From Bacillota bacterium (GTDB lineage Bacteria; Bacillota; DTU025), in NCBI GenBank assembly GCA_019136685.1, contig JAGVTS010000095.1, forward strand, positions 1 through 37,411: DNA of 37,411 nucleotides, in the 5' to 3' direction. Numbering within the stretch: position 1 is the first letter of the stretch; every line of letters starts with the position of its first letter. Made by a program: the position numbers and the translations under genes. Shown here piece after piece: positions 3,549 through 26,822 of the stretch. The notes under the pieces are model-generated. The model saw only the letters and a list, made by a program, of their open reading frames with translations. It was not told where the DNA came from and made no database searches.

Positions 3549-5537
3549 TCAAAACCTCCATCCCAGCAGGTTCCAGGTGTGCAGCAACCATATGAAGGCG
3601 CCGTCCGCGGCAATGACGAGCCACGGGAGGACAATCCCTGTTAGCCCTTTGCGCGCCCTTCGGCTGTAGAACGTCCAGCGCTGCCGCCGCCTGTTTGCAG
3701 CAGTGCGCCTCATGGTCTGCCATACTAGCGCTAGTGCAAGCGCGACGCCCACCAGCGGGAGGGCCAACGACGCCTTGGTTATCGTCGGCACGGCGGTGGT
3801 GAGTTCCCAGGCTGGAATCGCAAGGAGTGAGCCGGCAATGCCGGCTATGGCGGCCAGGTTCACCAGGCCGAGCACAGCGGCAAGTCCACTCACTTTGCGG
3901 CCGAACACCCAGGCCAGCGCGGCCCAGACAAACACCGCGGCCATAGCGGCTACTACCGCCAGTGTGAACGAAGCGGTCTCATAGACAGGCACCCTCTCAA
4001 AGGCCCAGGACCCGATGTACATGCGGGACGGGCGCGCCCTTCTGGCCACAGTCTTCCATTTATCGAAAGCCATGACATCATCGCCGGCTGTGTCGCGGTA
4101 GAGCCCCGGCCCTGCCGGCGCCCATGTCGTCATTGGCATTCCGTATCCGGCCGGGAAAGCCAGCGCCAGCGTCCCGTCGTCATGGGCGGTAACTCGGAAC
4201 TGGGTCAGCAGAGATATGGCCTTGTCGGCTGTGGCCACGGGGCACCGGGTCATCCGGTAGACGCCGGCCAGTTCCCGGGGGGCGCCCGCCATATCAGCAA
4301 CTCCGAGGGTGCTCATGTCTTTCGCGGGCTGAACAACGCTCGATGCGTCCGCAGCCTCAAGGGAGGGGAAGAAGGTATCGAAAAGGGCCTTGACGAGTTC
4401 ATGGCCCAAAGGCGCTGCCCCCGAGCTATTCCCCGATACAAACAGCCCGAGGTTCTCGTCCGGCGCCAGCAGAAGCTGAGTCGAGAACCCCCATAGATCG
4501 CCGCCATGCAGAACCACGCGGCGCCCGTTGCGGCGGCCCATGAACCATGCGTATCCGATTCCGGGTACCCGGGGATCATTTGTGAACTGCTGCGTCTGCA
4601 TTGCTTCCACGTATTCGGCCCCTAGCACGCGTGCCCCGTCAGGCTCGCCGCCTGCCAGGTTGGCCATCATGAACTTGGCCATGTCGGCGGCCGTAGTCAT
4701 CAGCGCTCCTGCCGGGGCCACGTTTATGTGCACGTACGGCGCCTTGACATACTTGCCCCGCCGCCACTGGTAACTCGACGAAAGGTGCTGTTCTATGTCG
4801 GGCGTCAACTGGAAATCGCTGCTCTCCATGCCCAGGGGGGCCAGGATGTTCGCTTTGATGTACTCGGCAAATGGCAGTCCGCCGGCGCATTCTACTACGT
4901 ATCCTGCCAGCGCTGCCCCATGGTTGCTGTACTGTATCTCCTGGCCGGCCGGCCGTATGCGCCGCGGCAACTCTGCGGCCAGGTATTCGCCTAGTTTAGG
5001 GTAGACGCGCGATCCGAATTCCGACATCCCCAGGTTTCGCTCATCGAAACCCGCGGTATGGGTGAGGAGGCGGCGCAGTGTGATTGGCTCAGGGTATGTT
5101 GGAGGGATGCTGAACCCCCTGACATAGGCGTTCACGTCTTTATCCAAGTCAGCGATGCCCCGTTCTGCCAATTGCATTACGGCCATTCCAGTGAAGACCT
5201 TGGACACCGAAGCTGCGCGGAACACTGTTGTAGCCGGATCCACACCCTTGCCGGCTTCAATGTCGGAGTATCCGAATCCGCGCATGGTGAGAATCTCTCC
5301 GTCTTTCACAGCGACGAAGGTGACGCCGGGAACGTGCAGACGAGCCATGGCAGATGGAATGAAGGCATCCAATAACTGGTCCACAGCTTCCCGAGTCAGC
5401 GTCGGGGCTTCGGTGAGTGTCCGGGCGGACACCGCCTCTAGACCCGCGATGGTCGCAGTGCCACTAATCGAGAGGGCGATTCCGCACACTAAAGCGGCAA
5501 GAGACAATAGCACTATTTTCGTCTTCGCGTTTCTCAC
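3549..5537 (-). CDS. Membrane-tethered serine hydrolase (beta-lactamase/PBP fold)
   Basis: A 662-residue exported protein. Residues 1-35 form a signal peptide or anchor. Residues about 50-390 are a Beta-lactamase domain (PF00144) with all three active-site elements: S110-V-S-K113 (SxxK nucleophile), Y203-S-N205 (YxN) and H344-G-G346 (HxG in place of KTG). After a linker domain (about 400-515), roughly four membrane helices follow (about 522-544, 550-575, 590-608, 632-655). This layout is common in Firmicutes for D-alanyl peptidase or esterase-like proteins of unknown substrate. It starts at GTG 5537 with GGAGG 7 nt upstream. A perfect 20-bp palindrome lies just upstream in the leader (5563-5582), suggesting local regulation. 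It is convergent with the RemA-like gene. Confidence 0.88.
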   Translation of the reverse strand: MRNAKTKIVLLSLAALVCGIALSISGTATIAGLEAVSARTLTEAPTLTREAVDQLLDAFIPSAMARLHVPGVTFVAVKDGEILTMRGFGYSDIEAGKGVDPATTVFRAASVSKVFTGMAVMQLAERGIADLDKDVNAYVRGFSIPPTYPEPITLRRLLTHTAGFDERNLGMSEFGSRVYPKLGEYLAAELPRRIRPAGQEIQYSNHGAALAGYVVECAGGLPFAEYIKANILAPLGMESSDFQLTPDIEQHLSSSYQWRRGKYVKAPYVHINVAPAGALMTTAADMAKFMMANLAGGEPDGARVLGAEYVEAMQTQQFTNDPRVPGIGYAWFMGRRNGRRVVLHGGDLWGFSTQLLLAPDENLGLFVSGNSSGAAPLGHELVKALFDTFFPSLEAADASSVVQPAKDMSTLGVADMAGAPRELAGVYRMTRCPVATADKAISLLTQFRVTAHDDGTLALAFPAGYGMPMTTWAPAGPGLYRDTAGDDVMAFDKWKTVARRARPSRMYIGSWAFERVPVYETASFTLAVVAAMAAVFVWAALAWVFGRKVSGLAAVLGLVNLAAIAGIAGSLLAIPAWELTTAVPTITKASLALPLVGVALALALVWQTMRRTAANRRRQRWTFYSRRARKGLTGIVLPWLVIAADGAFIWLLHTWNLLGWRF

Positions 5538-5562
5538 TCGACTACCTCCAACTGCAGTTTGA

Positions 5563-5582
5563 CCAGCGAGCTAGCTCGCTGG
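5563..5582. promoter_or_regulatory. Perfect 20-bp palindrome, possible operator
   Basis: CCAGCGAGCTAGCTCGCTGG reads identically on both strands. It lies about 26 nt upstream of the GTG start of the serine hydrolase gene (minus strand) and 177 nt before the fucose-isomerase-like gene (plus strand). Length and symmetry fit a dimeric repressor site. It could also fold as a hairpin in the hydrolase leader RNA. No T-run follows, so a terminator is unlikely. Confidence 0.45.
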
Positions 5583-5758
5583 CAACCCCAGTCTCTATCA
5601 ATTTCAACTCCAGCGGCGCATCTCCTGCCTGCCCGAATGGACGCTCGGAGGGATTTGTGCACATTCTTGTGTATATCGAGCTGACGCTGTAGGACTTTCC
5701 GACGAGCGTATCGAATGTGGTGAGGGGCAAGCAAGCGAACAAGGGGGTAGATCCGCTA

Positions 5759-7003
5759 ATGCGAGTCAGTGTCGTAGAGGTTGCATCCTCGTGGCGCGAT
5801 CTCCGCGAGGTGACTAATAGAGCCGAGCACTACAGAGCCGAACTTGCTGTGCTTGGCGCCGGCAAAGGGATCGAATTCCGGTGGCATGATTCGCGAGTGT
5901 CAGCCATGGAACTTGCTGAGTCCGATGCCCTGCTGCTCTTGGTTCTGAGCGGGGGCACTGAGCAACTGGGCTTGTCGGTCATCGCTCGCTGGAACGGCCC
6001 TGTCGCGATACTCGCTCACCCCGGCGACAATGCCCTGGCCTCTGCCATGGAGATACTTGCCCTCGCCAGATCCGTGGGGCATTCGGGCATCATAGTGCAG
6101 GGCAGTCGCGGCTGGCGTGAGGAGATCTCGCTCGCTGTTACGCTCGCGAAGACACATTCTTCGTTGCGCAGGGCAACAATTGGATCACTGGGATCGCGGG
6201 ATATCGAGGTCATGTCGCCGTGGGCTTTGGAAGGCGCCGTGAGGGAAGTGTGGGGCCCGCAACTGGTGCATTTGCCTCTAGGCGAACTGGTACGCTACTC
6301 GCGTGAAGCTGATGCCGGGGCTGCACACGCGACGGCATCTCAGATGCAGGCAGCGGCAGAGGCAGTCGTTGAGCCTGACGCCAACGCCATGCTAGGATCC
6401 GCCAAGATATACCTAGGCCTGAGGCGGATAGTTCAGGAACACCACCTTGATGCTGTGGCTGTGCACTGTTTCGCCCTGCTGACGCCGCTCGCGAACACTG
6501 CGTGCTACGCTCTGGCGCGCCTAAACGATGAAGGAGTGCCGGCAACCTGCGAAGCCGATGTTCCGTCATGTCTTACGATGCTGTTCATGCGGTATCTAAC
6601 ATCTCAACCGAGTTTCCTGGCTAACCCCTCGTCCGTCGACCTGCGAACGGGTACAGCGGTGTTTGCCCACTGTACCATACCGCCAAGCATGTGCTCGACA
6701 TACTCGCTGAGATCACACTATGAGTCGGACTTGGGTGTAGGCATTGCAGGTGAGCTGGAACCAGGCCCTGTTACTGTTGTCCGCATCGGCGGGAGGGAGC
6801 TGCGGGACGTGTACGCCGTGCGCGGCCAGCTGATTGAGTGCGGGGAGCGGGAAGACCTATGCCGCACCCAGCTGGCTGTGAAGTTCGACCGGCCGGAGGA
6901 CGCGCGCATCCTCCTCAGCCGTCCGCTTGGGAATCACCACATGGTTGTCCGGGGTGACTGGACGCGCCAGATCAACGCGTACTGCGACTACTTCCACAAC
7001 TAG
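5759..7003 (+). CDS. L-fucose isomerase-like protein (FucI/AraA superfamily)
   Basis: A 414-residue protein related to L-fucose/L-arabinose isomerases (COG2407 type). The C-terminal half carries the diagnostic stretch ACYALARLND, then CEADVPSCLTML (with E265 and D267), SSVDLRTGTAVFAHC (D294, H304) and a final beta domain. The acidic and His residues are the likely metal-binding equivalents. Family members interconvert aldoses and ketoses, but many relatives have unknown substrates, and no sugar kinase, aldolase or transporter is adjacent. I chose ATG 5759 (AAGGGGG upstream); a frame from 5717 adds 14 unconserved residues. Its stop overlaps that of the convergent cysteine-desulfurase gene (shared CTAG, 7000-7003). 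Confidence 0.8.
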   Translation: MRVSVVEVASSWRDLREVTNRAEHYRAELAVLGAGKGIEFRWHDSRVSAMELAESDALLLLVLSGGTEQLGLSVIARWNGPVAILAHPGDNALASAMEILALARSVGHSGIIVQGSRGWREEISLAVTLAKTHSSLRRATIGSLGSRDIEVMSPWALEGAVREVWGPQLVHLPLGELVRYSREADAGAAHATASQMQAAAEAVVEPDANAMLGSAKIYLGLRRIVQEHHLDAVAVHCFALLTPLANTACYALARLNDEGVPATCEADVPSCLTMLFMRYLTSQPSFLANPSSVDLRTGTAVFAHCTIPPSMCSTYSLRSHYESDLGVGIAGELEPGPVTVVRIGGRELRDVYAVRGQLIECGEREDLCRTQLAVKFDRPEDARILLSRPLGNHHMVVRGDWTRQINAYCDYFHN

Positions 7004-11928: not shown

Positions 11929-12016
11929 TCGAAGTCGCCGCCTGGCTGTGGTAAACTGGTGTTTGCCGGGTGACGGCACTTGATTGGGCCCGCCGTGGAA
12001 TGGAGAAGTGTAGGCT

Positions 12017-15529: not shown

Positions 15530-15561
15530 CATGCACTACAGGCGCATCAGCGAGTGCAGGA

Positions 15562-16854
15562 TCACATGTTCACTATCAGGCTGAAGTCGCCGGACCTGGC
15601 GGCCTCGAGGATAGGCCCCATGTACTCATCTACTTGCGATGCCACCAGAGGCACCGGCATGTTCTGCAGTTTCGATTCCAGTTGTGGATTCTTGGCAGCG
15701 CCGAGTGCGCGCGAGACATGTTCATCAGTGAAACCTGGGAGTTCCGACAGCCTGGTCGGGAAGCCGATCTTCCGGCTCAGGTTGGTCATGCCTTCTGCGA
15801 CTACTATCCCCAGTTCACGTCCCGACAGGGCATCGAGATCTTCGGTAATGTACCCGTAGCGCCGGAATATGCCGCCCACTAGCCTGAGCTTATCTTCGAT
15901 CGCAGGCGCGAAGAACACGGCGTAGTAGGGGTTCATTATGGCGCAGGCGCGTCCGTGTGATGTGACGTCAACTAGAGAGAAGCTGTTGAGATGGGGGCCG
16001 TTGGTCCCTCCGACCATGATGGCGTATGCCCCGAGATCAGTGGCAAGGCCCAGGGCCTCGCGAGGCGCTCGTGCCTCGGGGTCGGCCATAATCGCAGGGA
16101 TGCCGGACACAATCAGCTCGATTCCTACCTCCGCTATCTCCTGAAGCAGGCCGAGGTTCGCGCCCTTTGCGCCGAGGAATACCTCCAGGCAGTGGGCGAG
16201 CCCATCGAATGCTCCGTCCAATGTCACGTCAGGCGGCGCGCTCCGGGTCAGCGAGTAGTCGAACACAGCCCGGTCGGGAGTCACCGCCTCATCCACTATC
16301 AGCTTCTTCTGTCCGGCCCAGGCGTCGGTGACATTGGAGTACTTGGTGAGGTGTGCCCCTGAGCCGGACGCAGTCTGCACAGCCGCCATCGGGAGCAACC
16401 TAGCGCCTGTGCGCGCAAGCGCCGGGCCGACCAGGCCCATTCCGTAGTAGCTTTCCAGCTCGGGGTCGTCATGCCCCAGGCAAGCTGCCACATTGGCGGC
16501 TTTGGCTGCGTCTATGGTGCTGCCTCCGCCGACGGCTACGATGCAGTCCGGTCGGTAAAGCAGTATGTAGAGGGACATCTTGTACACGTCGTCCAGCAGC
16601 GAATTGGGCCTCGATCCGGGAGCGATTCTATCGCCCGCCAGCTCTATGCCGGATTCGTTGAGGGATGAGACGACTTCTTCAACGATGGGCTTGAGCCACG
16701 CGCTGCGGTTGGCTATGACCAGCGCGCGCTGCCCCCCCAATTCGTTGGCGTAGGCGCCCACCCGTCCGAGCGCCCCATCACCGTAGGCGTATTTGTCTCC
16801 CCGGAAACGATGGATCAAGGCGCGGGCTCGATTCTTCAGATCGTCAGTATGCAC
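15562..16854 (-). CDS. Iron-containing alcohol dehydrogenase family protein
   Basis: About 430 residues with the Fe-ADH fold (PF00465). The N-terminal nucleotide-binding part shows VAVGGGSTIDAAKAAN. The metal-site region has DGAFDGLAHCLEVF (Asp and His) and, further on, SHGRACAIMNPYYAVF (His). Family members reduce aldehydes or oxidise alcohols with NAD(P) and a divalent metal; the substrate cannot be told. The frame is open back to 17148, but those extra residues are unconserved and overlap the divergent promoter of the HAD gene. I prefer GTG 16854, with AAAGGG 9 nt upstream (ATG 16872 is possible). It is divergent from the HAD-IIA gene and upstream of cstA. Confidence 0.85.
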   Translation of the reverse strand: MHTDDLKNRARALIHRFRGDKYAYGDGALGRVGAYANELGGQRALVIANRSAWLKPIVEEVVSSLNESGIELAGDRIAPGSRPNSLLDDVYKMSLYILLYRPDCIVAVGGGSTIDAAKAANVAACLGHDDPELESYYGMGLVGPALARTGARLLPMAAVQTASGSGAHLTKYSNVTDAWAGQKKLIVDEAVTPDRAVFDYSLTRSAPPDVTLDGAFDGLAHCLEVFLGAKGANLGLLQEIAEVGIELIVSGIPAIMADPEARAPREALGLATDLGAYAIMVGGTNGPHLNSFSLVDVTSHGRACAIMNPYYAVFFAPAIEDKLRLVGGIFRRYGYITEDLDALSGRELGIVVAEGMTNLSRKIGFPTRLSELPGFTDEHVSRALGAAKNPQLESKLQNMPVPLVASQVDEYMGPILEAARSGDFSLIVNM

Positions 16855-16932
16855 TCTCCACAACCCTTTCATTGGCTCATGTATCGTGATATCGCGGCCA
16901 TGCTCACATTTCGGCAAGACGATCCGAATTCC

Positions 16933-22539: not shown

Positions 22540-22917
22540 CTACTCCGATCCGGCCGAATCACCGCCGGAGTCCGCCGGGTTCGCCAAATGGATTATGCCC
22601 GCTACCTGCGACACATCCAGCGCGAAGGCTATGCCGGTTCCGGGCCTCTCAAGCTGGCCGGCCTTCGTGATGGCTTGCAGTACCGGTTGCGTGCGCTCGC
22701 GAGGGATGAGGGTGAGGACTACCTCTTTCTCCGGTTCAATCAGTATTCCGAAGAAGGTCTTGCGCTCATGCACTCCGGTGCCCCGTCCATAGAGCACGGT
22801 GCCGCCCTCAGCGCCCGCGCTGCGCGCAGCCTCCACTATCTCGTCGGCCCATCCCTTGTTTATGATCGTCACGATGAGATCGAACTCTCTATCGACGGCT
22901 GTCTTTCCGTTTGACAA
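22540..22917 (-). CDS. P-II-like nitrogen-regulator family protein
   Basis: A 125-residue GlnB/GlnK-fold protein. FDLIVTIINKGWADEIVEAA begins the ferredoxin-like fold; the T-loop region reads YGRGTGVHERKTFFG (43-57); LTLIPRER and KPG-like RPGTGIAFALDV supply the C-terminal nucleotide-binding parts. Canonical P-II proteins sense ATP/ADP and 2-oxoglutarate and block transporters such as AmtB. This branch lacks an obvious uridylylation Tyr51 context and is the type found beside DUF1538 genes. The start is TTG 22917 with GGGGGGAG six nt upstream. The gene overlaps the DUF1538 gene by 49 nt, an unusually long coupling. Regulation of the DUF1538 pair is inferred from this arrangement. Confidence 0.85.
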   Translation of the reverse strand: MSNGKTAVDREFDLIVTIINKGWADEIVEAARSAGAEGGTVLYGRGTGVHERKTFFGILIEPEKEVVLTLIPRERTQPVLQAITKAGQLERPGTGIAFALDVSQVAGIIHLANPADSGGDSAGSE

Positions 22918-23687
22918 ACTGAACTCCCCCCATCAGAAGTATCTGCATCGCTGGGTGCGGTAGTATCCTTCTTCGTTCTGAACGCGAAACTCAACGCTTC
23001 TACTGCAAGCGTGGAAGCCAGCGCAATCAGGCACACAAGCCCGAAGCCCGCCCCGATGGTCGGTCCGCCCGGTTGCTCGGCCGCGATACCCAGGCCGAGC
23101 GACATGAGGAAGGTGACGGTGAGCGGGCCGGTTGCCACTGCGCCTGAGTCGAAGGAGATCGCGGCGAATGCCGGATCGATCCACCGAAGAAGCGTGAGGG
23201 CGACGATGTAGCCCGGGATGATGATGTAGGTAAGCGGGATACTGCGTGCGATGAAGTAGTAGCCCAGCGATACCAGCGTAGCCACTCCGAAAGCCATGGT
23301 GGCGAGCAGCAGTCGCTCACGAATGTGGCCGGCCGATGCCTTTTCCACTTCGCCGCTGAGCACGCGGGCAGACGGTTCGGCCAACACCACGAGCAGGCCG
23401 AGCACAAACCCGACGGGCAACACGATGGCCGGAACGTCCAACTTGCCAAGGCGAGCGCCTAGCGCCCGGCCGAGGGGCACAAAGGCAATGCTGACGCCTT
23501 GAAGGAACAGCGAGAGGCCTACGAAGGTCCACGCAAGACCAATCACCACACGGCGCACGAAGGTACGGGGCAGCTTGAGGCAGAAGACCTGGAAGAGGGC
23601 GAACAGCGCGCCCAGTGGTATCAGGGTGCGTGCCACCTCGGTCATCACCTGCCCAAACCCGTGAAACACTACGATGTGATCGATCAC
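22869..23687 (-). CDS. DUF1538 membrane protein, copy A
   Basis: A 272-residue protein with about seven membrane helices of the DUF1538 family (PF07556). Family marks are FLQGVSIAFVPLGRALG, VLAEPSARVLSGEV and FDSGAVATGPLTV. Function is unknown in the family; the shape and the P-II partner suggest a transporter or channel. The GTG start at 23687 shares GTGA with the stop of copy B, supporting it over the longer GTG 23702, and GGGGGG lies 7 nt upstream. A cytoplasmic polar tail (last 40 residues) is partly encoded by DNA that also encodes the start of the P-II gene. Copies A and B are clearly homologous to each other. Confidence 0.85.
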   Translation of the reverse strand: MIDHIVVFHGFGQVMTEVARTLIPLGALFALFQVFCLKLPRTFVRRVVIGLAWTFVGLSLFLQGVSIAFVPLGRALGARLGKLDVPAIVLPVGFVLGLLVVLAEPSARVLSGEVEKASAGHIRERLLLATMAFGVATLVSLGYYFIARSIPLTYIIIPGYIVALTLLRWIDPAFAAISFDSGAVATGPLTVTFLMSLGLGIAAEQPGGPTIGAGFGLVCLIALASTLAVEALSFAFRTKKDTTAPSDADTSDGGSSVCQTERQPSIESSISS

Positions 23688-24376
23688 ATAAACACCCCCC
23701 ACACCATCAGCACCAGTACGGGGCCGAGCGTCGCCAGGCCCACCAGGCCGAACTCATCGGCCAGGGTCTGTTTTCGCTGAAGCACCGACGCTGTGCCCAG
23801 CCCGAGCGCGATGATGCACGGCACGGCCATGGGCCCTGTCGAGACGCTGCCCGAGTCGAGGAAGAGCGGCACCAACTCGGGGTTTGTGAATGACGAGAGC
23901 ACAATCACTGCTATATAGGCCCCGGCGAACAGCCATTTGATAGGGATGTCGAGGAGTATCCTGAGTATCGCGATGGTGACCAGAAGCCCCATTCCGCCCG
24001 ACAGCAGAATCGCCAGGACCTGCGGGTTGATGCCCGAGTCGGGAAACGAGCCCACCTGCGCGACCAAGACGTGCACTGACGGATCGGCGATGGTGACGCT
24101 GAAACTGAAGATGAAGGCGGTAGCTACCAGTAGCGCGGTCGACCCGTGCCTGGGCAAGTAGGCGCCGATCATCTCACCCATCGGCAGTAGCGCTATCCGG
24201 GTGCCTCTGAGGAACAGGAATAGACCTGCGGTGGTGAACACGGCGCCGATGAGGAGCTGTGCCAGCGTCGTCCATGACAGGCCCAGAAAGACCGTGCTCA
24301 GGACTGCGACGGCGACGGTGAGCGGCGCTACTGCGTTGACTACTTCGGCGACGGCTGCACGAAATTGGCTAGACAC
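23684..24376 (-). CDS. DUF1538 membrane protein, copy B
   Basis: A 230-residue membrane protein with about seven helices. It carries the same three blocks as copy A: FLRGTRIALLPMGEMIG, IADPSVHVLVAQV and LDSGSVSTGPMAV. Many DUF1538 proteins are double-length, with two such units in one chain; here the units are two adjacent genes, so they likely form one complex. The GTG start at 24376 has AAGGAG 8 nt upstream. It overlaps copy A by 4 nt (GTGA). It follows the hydantoinase/HDAC-like gene by 51 nt on the same strand. Substrate unknown. Confidence 0.85.
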   Translation of the reverse strand: MSSQFRAAVAEVVNAVAPLTVAVAVLSTVFLGLSWTTLAQLLIGAVFTTAGLFLFLRGTRIALLPMGEMIGAYLPRHGSTALLVATAFIFSFSVTIADPSVHVLVAQVGSFPDSGINPQVLAILLSGGMGLLVTIAILRILLDIPIKWLFAGAYIAVIVLSSFTNPELVPLFLDSGSVSTGPMAVPCIIALGLGTASVLQRKQTLADEFGLVGLATLGPVLVLMVWGVFM

Positions 24377-24427: not shown

Positions 24428-25366
24428 TCAGCTGTCGCCTGCGATATCTTGGAGATATGTGAGATTGAGGCGCCCGGCGCGCACCTCGGCCGACAGCCGT
24501 TCAAGCTCGCCTTGGGCATCCATCCGGCACTGTCGGCATGCCTGCCGAGGTATGATGACCACGCCGATACGGACTGTCCTGCCTGAGAAGGCGTGAAGGG
24601 CCTCTGATTGGATCGAGCGCCACCCGCTGCAGGCTTCGCACAGCCGGATCCGCTCGTTCTGTCGCTCTGCGATATTGTCGGTGTCGTAGTAGATGTCCCG
24701 GCGACGCCGGAAGAACTGGCCTGCACCGAACATAGCTTCTAGGTCTGCGTCGCGGCGAGACGCCCACATGTCCTGGAGTGCAGCTACCGTGCGGGCGATG
24801 GCACTCGAGATCTCTCGGGGCTGAGCGACGACATCGGGTCGCCAGTCGGGCTCGCGCACGGCGCCAAAGTCCAGTCCTGCCAAGGCCAGCAGGATTCCCA
24901 GGTTGACATAGGGAAGGGCGCCTTCGATGGAATACCCGCCCTCCAGTACCACGATGCCCGGCGCCAGCATCTGTGTGAGACGGGCATAGCCTTGCGCGGT
25001 GAAGTTCATGTTGGTGAGCGGGTCAGTGTAGTGATTGTCCTGCCCTGCAGCGTTAACAATCAGATGGGGCTGCCAGTCGCGGAGGATGGGCAGCACCAAA
25101 TGCTCCGTAACGTAGAGCATTCCGGGATCGCCGCGCCCCTCTACTATCGCATTCGTTGACAGAGTCGTGCTCAGGTGAAGCTCAAGCGGCTTCTTGATGC
25201 GGCCCGCCGTACTCAGCGCCTCGGTAAAGGCGACGGCGGTGCTCTGGACGAGCGACTCGGGATCCGTGGGTATTTTGGCTACGCCCGCGACTTCGCCATC
25301 TATGATCAACGCGGCATCGGTGTTGGTTCCGCCTACGTCGATGCCTAGGACGGGTAAGCGTGTCAA
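24428..25366 (-). CDS. Chimera: hydantoinase N-terminus fused to HDAC C-terminal part
   Basis: About 312 residues in one open frame but from two families. Residues 1-80 resemble the N-terminus of hydantoinase/oxoprolinase (PF05378): LGIDVGGTNTDAALI and STTLSTNAIVEGRGDP. From about residue 83 it becomes the C-terminal half of a histone-deacetylase-fold protein (acetoin utilisation AcuC/HDAC type): LIVNAAGQDNHYTDPL (Asp would be a zinc ligand) and VVLEGGYSIEGALPYVNLG. The HDAC N-terminal half, with catalytic His pair and two other zinc ligands, is absent, as is most of the hydantoinase. The tail has a CxxC...CxxC pair (LCEACSGW and ACRQCRMD). Probably a deletion fusion and non-catalytic. The TTG start at 25366 has AGGAG at 8 nt. 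Confidence 0.7.
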   Translation of the reverse strand: MTRLPVLGIDVGGTNTDAALIIDGEVAGVAKIPTDPESLVQSTAVAFTEALSTAGRIKKPLELHLSTTLSTNAIVEGRGDPGMLYVTEHLVLPILRDWQPHLIVNAAGQDNHYTDPLTNMNFTAQGYARLTQMLAPGIVVLEGGYSIEGALPYVNLGILLALAGLDFGAVREPDWRPDVVAQPREISSAIARTVAALQDMWASRRDADLEAMFGAGQFFRRRRDIYYDTDNIAERQNERIRLCEACSGWRSIQSEALHAFSGRTVRIGVVIIPRQACRQCRMDAQGELERLSAEVRAGRLNLTYLQDIAGDS

Positions 25367-25493
25367 GATAATCACTCCTCAGGCTCTCGTATCTCCATTC
25401 ACTACAGGCGGGACGAAATCCTCTTGCAATCCTTGAAGGTGAAACAGGCGGCAGCGACTACTATACGACGTAGAGGCATTCATATCATCAGGA

Positions 25494-26822
25494 ATGGAGA
25501 GATTCGAGTTGAACTGTGGCGATGCTTGCGATCATGCGAATTCAATGCAGGCTCAGGTCATCTTGTCGCATTCAGTATTGCCGAAGGGCAAGCCCGGGAA
25601 GCTGTGGGCAGTCGTAAAGCTCTCAAGTGGGCCAAAGCAACAGGGAACCGCGGAACGGCTGCCGCTGAACATAGGGGTCGTTCTCGACCGCAGCGGCTCC
25701 ATGAGTGGGCGCCCTCTCGACTATGTCAGGCAGGCGGCCAAGTTTCTGGTAGAACAGGTTGGCGCGAACGACGTTCTTTCCCTCACGGTGTTCGACAGCC
25801 AGGTTGACGTCGTCTTCCCGGCGCAGCGCGTGACCAACAAGGACATGCTCAAGCAGGCCGTTGATTCGATCAGTACAGGAGGATCAACCAACCTTTCGGG
25901 CGGCTTGCTCCGGGGATACGACGAGGCTCTGAAAGAGGGTCGGTCGGAGCAGGTCAACCGAGTGCTCCTACTTACCGACGGAATGGCCAACGTGGGAGTG
26001 GTCGATCCCGACATGCTGGCGGGCAAGGCCGGCGCAATGCTGCGCAGGGGAGTGTCGCTCTCAACTGTCGGCGTAGGCCTGCACTTCAACGAGGACCTGC
26101 TGATTCAGCTGGCGGAAGCGGGAAAGGGGTCCTATTACTACGTTCGGGAGGCTGATGAGATCCCAGGCGTGTTCGCTTCTGAGCTTCAAGGGCTGCTCTC
26201 CGTGGTCGCACAAAACATCGGTCTGCAAGTGCACGGCCTATCAGGATGCCGTGCTACGGCGGTCCTCGGTTATGAACCGGCGTTTGACGACACAGGCATG
26301 TCGCTTACATTGCCCGATATGTTCCACGATGATCAGAAGCTGCTGGCAGTAGAGATCGACCATCCGGCTTTGGCTGCGGGCCAGCACGAAATCCTCAAGA
26401 TACGATTGTCATACGCAGATGCCGCTCATGACTTGGATGCCGTCTCCGTGGAGGTCACAGCCAAGATGTCTGTCGGCTCCGCGGGCGACCAACCGGAGGC
26501 GCCCAACTTCGAGGTGCTCAAGATCGTAGAACTCGCCAAGACTGCCATTGTGAAGGACCAGAGCGTCGAAGCCATCGACCGCGGCGACTTCGAATCCGGG
26601 CGTCGGGCGCTGGAGGAGCGTTTGACGGCGCTCAGGGAATTGCAGGAGGCCTATGGGCAACACGATTCCGACCTGCAGGAGGAGATCAGTAACTTGGAGA
26701 GCATGTCTGTGCAGGATTCCGGTTCGTTCTCGGCGTGCTTCGATACTGAGAGCCGCAAAGACCTCAGGTATCAGAGCTATCAGAGGAGGCATAATCGCCC
26801 GACGAATCGTCCGGAGAAGTAG
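25494..26822 (+). CDS. von Willebrand factor A domain protein
   Basis: A 442-residue protein. Residues about 57-235 form a VWA domain with an intact metal-ion site: D65-R-S67-G-S69 (DxSxS), T132 (GGSTNLSGG) and D162 (LLLTDGMANVG). A beta-rich domain follows (about 245-345), then a helical, glutamate-rich C-terminus (about 350-420), perhaps coiled-coil. The layout matches the YfbK/inter-alpha-trypsin-inhibitor-like bacterial VWA proteins, whose roles are poorly known. There is no signal peptide, so it is likely cytosolic. The start ATG 25494 has only a weak SD (AGGA); ATG 25545 is possible. It is divergent from the chimera gene and convergent with the DUF6305-like gene, 10 nt apart. Confidence 0.85.
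   Translation: MERFELNCGDACDHANSMQAQVILSHSVLPKGKPGKLWAVVKLSSGPKQQGTAERLPLNIGVVLDRSGSMSGRPLDYVRQAAKFLVEQVGANDVLSLTVFDSQVDVVFPAQRVTNKDMLKQAVDSISTGGSTNLSGGLLRGYDEALKEGRSEQVNRVLLLTDGMANVGVVDPDMLAGKAGAMLRRGVSLSTVGVGLHFNEDLLIQLAEAGKGSYYYVREADEIPGVFASELQGLLSVVAQNIGLQVHGLSGCRATAVLGYEPAFDDTGMSLTLPDMFHDDQKLLAVEIDHPALAAGQHEILKIRLSYADAAHDLDAVSVEVTAKMSVGSAGDQPEAPNFEVLKIVELAKTAIVKDQSVEAIDRGDFESGRRALEERLTALRELQEAYGQHDSDLQEEISNLESMSVQDSGSFSACFDTESRKDLRYQSYQRRHNRPTNRPEK

Follow-up and report, generated by a model that had tools for sequence, protein, structure and literature searches.

The fused reading frame and its surroundings

The window analysed here, the whole 37,411-nucleotide stretch of a Bacillota contig (JAGVTS010000095.1), carries a 312-residue open reading frame whose two parts belong to different protein families (Table 1). 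The earlier note had described this frame as uninterrupted, which holds, and gave no strand; it lies on the minus strand, and the plus strand over the same interval is interrupted by stop codons. The TTG start is preceded at a distance of 8 nt by GAGGAG (25375-25380), a Shine-Dalgarno-like sequence, and the intact hydantoinase-like gene of the sister genome G001 (described below) has a matching GGAG-8 nt-TTG layout. Directly upstream, a von Willebrand factor A gene occupies 25494-26822 on the plus strand, where G001 has only ~50 bases. On the downstream side are genes for two DUF1538 membrane proteins and a P-II-like protein. In Halomonas, paired DUF1538 proteins (UmpAB) have been reported to act as a Na+/H+ antiporter (PMC5484666), and the pair encoded within 22540-24376 is perhaps regulated by the P-II-like protein.

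Table 1. Features of the fused frame and of its downstream neighbours, in window coordinates.
Feature	Position	Strand	Remarks
P-II-like protein	22540..22917	minus	intact; syntenic in G001
Second DUF1538 membrane protein	22869..23702	minus	intact; syntenic in G001
DUF1538 membrane protein, downstream neighbour	23684..24376	minus	intact; syntenic in G001
Fused ORF, 312 aa	24428..25366	minus	TTG start 25366-25364, stop 24428-24430
HDAC-like part, from just past the GDP stretch to the end	24428..25123	minus	PF00850 positions 205-285 only, E 1.5e-13
Four-Cys tail (C243, C246, C277, C280)	24527..24640	minus	Cys invariant in 77/77 full-length relatives and in alignment A3
Junction GGCGATCCC, encoding G-D-P	25124..25132	minus	same 9 bases at both G001 breakpoint positions
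Hydantoinase/oxoprolinase-like part, residues 1-78	25133..25366	minus	PF05378, E 4.7e-15

The Hydant_A_N profile matches residues 10-117 and the Hist_deacetyl profile residues 79-151, both above the curated cut-offs, which bears out the earlier proposal that a hydantoinase N-terminus and an HDAC C-terminus are joined in one open frame. Residues 1-78 carry the phosphate-binding loop GIDVGGTNTD (STTLSTNAIVEG), which conforms to the GxDxGGTxTD pattern of hydantoinase/oxoprolinase A-type ATPases (PF05378 plus PF01968), and represent the N-terminal sequence of that family, with ~73-76% identity to the start of the intact hydantoinase-like protein of G001. Unlike members of the family, the fusion lacks the remainder of the N-terminal domain and all of the Hydantoinase_A domain (PF01968), to which only a partial, sub-threshold match is obtained (15.6 bits versus a cut-off of 22.9). 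From residue 79, the chain is the C-terminal half of a 449-residue amidohydrolase, and is 78% identical to residues 205-444 of the HDAC-like protein of G001.

The hydantoinase match does reach residue 117, past the joint, and could be read as a sign that the whole chain is one known family and its division into two an accident of the profiles, an outcome that the earlier note had named as fatal to its proposal. We reject this reading as scarcely credible, as the chain falls to two Pfam families and each half has its counterpart in a different gene of the relatives; in G001, these two genes stand intact and adjacent. In addition, residues 74-201 are matched by solved HDAC structures, with E values as low as 4e-16, and residues 7-88, weakly, by hydantoinase-fold structures.

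The intact gene pair in a sister genome

The sole other genome of the genus that was examined is UBA5389 (Firmicutes bacterium, DHON01000086.1), referred to as G001. At its locus L031, a 590-residue hydantoinase-like gene (3604-5376) is followed, 3 bases further on, by the HDAC-like gene (449 residues, 5380-6729). Both are intact, adjacent and on one strand, and they share with the window a neighbourhood of DUF6305, DUF1538, DUF1538 and P-II genes; a close relative, in other words, retains at the same locus the two-gene layout that a deletion fusion presupposes. The hydantoinase-like protein matches both PF05378 and PF01968, as well as 5-oxoprolinase (6yra), acetophenone carboxylase (5l9w) and the caprolactamase CapA, and by sequence the HDAC-like protein resembles HDAC6 (E 1e-62) and, among bacterial enzymes, HDAH (E ~1e-45).

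A BLAST comparison of the window with G001 resolves into two blocks, 25424-25124 and 25132-16925, with exactly 9 bases (25124-25132) in common. The nonamer is found at both breakpoints in G001 and as a single copy at the window joint, the comparison being with a sister and not with a direct ancestor. This places the joint inside the interval 25118-25135, where the switch between families had been located earlier. Recombination at short homology, as then suggested, is right in kind, but the homology is a 9-nt DNA repeat and not a G-x-G-D-x-G protein motif. The G001 interval absent from the window measures 2,166 bp (722 codons) and, being divisible by three, left the frame open. The two GC-rich genes of G001 share 15 exact repeats of 9 nt or longer, 10 of which are in frame, so that the preserved reading frame is in itself unremarkable, and repeat and frame together, given how common such repeats are, are compatible with the mechanism without proving it. 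The geometry is that of deletion fusions at short direct repeats, in which the 3′ part of the upstream gene and the 5′ part of the downstream gene are lost and one repeat copy remains; no difference from ordinary cases is apparent, and the frame simply happens to be kept. A literature search on deletion fusions returned nothing specific.

An ancestral and self-contained pair

At all 77 related loci with upstream sequence (L031-L110), the HDAC-like gene is immediately preceded by the hydantoinase-like gene in the same orientation, in most cases across a small gap. The hosts, bacteria and methanogenic archaea according to their record titles, comprise Bacillota, Methanothrix and other Methanotrichaceae, deltaproteobacteria, an armatimonadete and an actinobacterium, and the constant adjacency indicates that the two-gene state is ancestral. 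The flanking genes vary by lineage (MurB, MutS/MutL, S-adenosylmethionine synthetase, a BCCT transporter and the CMD family), such that only the pair is constant and constitutes a self-contained unit; for the same reason, operon neighbours were dropped as a guide to function. Among NCBIfam models, the HDAC-like member has no match and the hydantoinase-like member none that reaches its cut-off, and a literature search found no published work on the pair. Judged by its families, the pair likely joins the activation or opening of an amide or ring substrate, at the cost of ATP, to an amide hydrolysis that depends on zinc. The intact pair is the more interesting object, the fusion as a protein mattering little beyond being a broken gene pair.

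The HDAC-like family as a whole, intact members included, carries an extra four-cysteine tail beyond the Pfam domain, which is probably a zinc-binding domain normal to this family. The earlier note had counted this tail (CxxC-CxxC) towards a possible new domain combination; the tail proves to be the family's own (77/77), and the combination occurs in no other genome among the matches listed. The surrounding C-terminal region (residues ~349-449 of the product of L031 5380-6729) contains YYDT, C-x2/3-C ... C-x2-C and YLQD and is strictly conserved. It lies outside any Pfam domain, and is predicted as a confident alpha/beta unit.

Catalytic residues and the predicted product

Residues H111, H112, D150, D152, H154, D241, Y276, C374, C378, C409 and C412 of the G001 HDAC-like protein are invariant in 77/77 full-length relatives. 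From the alignment with HDAC6 and what is established for that enzyme, we assign zinc binding to D152, H154 and D241 and the role of catalytic tyrosine to Y276. In common with HDAC-fold amidohydrolases (PF00850; HDAC6, HDAH and Kdac1, e.g. 1zz0, 5g0x and 8szt), the fusion keeps the AGxD ligand (D241, fusion D110) and the GGY tyrosine (Y276, fusion Y145, invariant in alignment A3). Unlike these enzymes, it is without the first half of the domain, and with it are lost D152 and H154, leaving one zinc ligand of three, and the His-His pair (H111-H112, RPPGHHA), which precedes the joint and is missing from both the fusion and its own genome. The loss of the catalytic histidines had been correctly noticed before. 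On the hydantoinase side, only the first phosphate loop remains, the rest of the nucleotide-binding fold being gone. The fusion product would on these grounds be catalytically dead, and a cautious annotation would name the frame neither a deacetylase nor a hydantoinase.

The AlphaFold model of the fusion has a pTM of 0.53 versus 0.90 for the intact G001 HDAC-like protein. Within the fusion, pLDDT is 88-97 in the Cys tail and 35-59 in the hydantoinase part, the latter being weak evidence since no alignment rows cover that part. The predicted fold of the fusion gives one significant structural match, a partial one to HDAH, and that of the intact protein is best matched by bacterial HDAH and Kdac1 structures. 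Outside the Cys tail, the product is probably poorly folded.

Selection on the two parts

Relative to G001, the hydantoinase part has a dN/dS of 0.22 and the HDAC part one of 0.15, and seven intact neighbour genes range from 0.12 to 0.21. Depending on the outgroup, the HDAC part has acquired 9-14 lineage-specific amino-acid changes in the window and 8-14 in G001, and of the columns invariant in the other sequences the window departs at 4 of 101 and G001 at 2 of 99. A gene evolving neutrally over much of a branch would accumulate more changes than its constrained counterpart; since substitutions unique to the window are as numerous as those on the G001 side, nothing points to a long period of relaxed selection. 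Values of dN/dS like those of intact neighbours imply a recent deletion, one introduced during assembly, or a product that is still useful, the last being the least likely of the three. The first two are not separated by this measure, as an unaltered dN/dS is expected from an assembly join as well.

Continued usefulness would make the fusion a new, selected and expressed protein, with the nucleotide-loop start and the Cys tail acting as a non-catalytic binding or regulatory module. The frame is open, retains its start and Shine-Dalgarno-like sequence and has low dN/dS, and the model of the fusion shows the Cys tail as a confident unit. Both catalytic centres, however, are lost, the predicted model is poor (pTM and hydantoinase-part pLDDT as given above, the latter obtained without alignment rows), low dN/dS owes as much to the period before the deletion as to that after it, and the fusion is found in a single genome. 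We therefore regard a selected new protein as very improbable. As to the other genomes in which the earlier note had suggested looking for the same architecture, 158 of the 398 phylum genomes searched match the fusion query, nearly all listed cases being to the HDAC half, and among the matches listed no comparable fusion occurs besides that of the window's own genome. An 819-residue frame in one of these genomes (G078) was considered as a second fusion and rejected, as by coordinates its two matches lie in different reading frames.

Origin of the fused frame

Taken together, we infer that a recent microhomology deletion in cells, its existence there and its recency being part of what is proposed, probably inactivated a conserved two-gene operon; a deletion fusion of this kind was among the possibilities first listed and is the best supported of them, given the intact pair in G001, the 9-nt repeat at both breakpoints and the in-frame length of the missing interval. 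The ancestor would have carried, as co-directional neighbours, a hydantoinase/oxoprolinase-like ATPase of 590 residues and an HDAC-fold amidohydrolase of 449 residues with a four-Cys tail. A single deletion of ~2.17 kb between the two GGCGATCCC copies, by replication slippage or microhomology end joining, would then have left the first gene without its last 86% and the second without its first 46%. The operon's function would thereby be lost from the strain, or from the dominant population sampled.

The main competitor is an assembly or library artefact, in which the cells hold an intact operon and a chimeric read or minor variant gave rise to a short contig path. The window belongs, as one contig, to a fragmented assembly (254 contigs, 93.7% complete), both parts are constrained like intact genes, and the fusion appears in no other genome among the matches listed from the 398 searched, all of which would fit such an origin. 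Against it, the contig contains no N, at the joint or elsewhere, which shows that the joint is not a scaffold gap, and the 9-nt identity falls below the overlap that short-read assemblers require. Moreover, the deleted segment is on no other contig: searches of the own assembly with the full-length G001 proteins and both Pfam models matched the fusion only, and PF01968 has no match anywhere in that genome. A second chimeric joint in the contig was also considered and rejected, as the other abrupt change in the alignment to G001, at 11929, is intergenic and produces no chimeric gene. An artefact thus appears unlikely, although it retains more weight than the other alternatives.

If the deletion in cells is real, the organism of the window has lost the function of the pair, and a close lineage can lose an operon that all relatives examined keep together.

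Other differences from the sister genome

Elsewhere along the contig, G001 contains an extra 1.85 kb at the intergenic point matching window position 11929, and ~15.8 kb separate its blocks that flank window positions 15535-16925.
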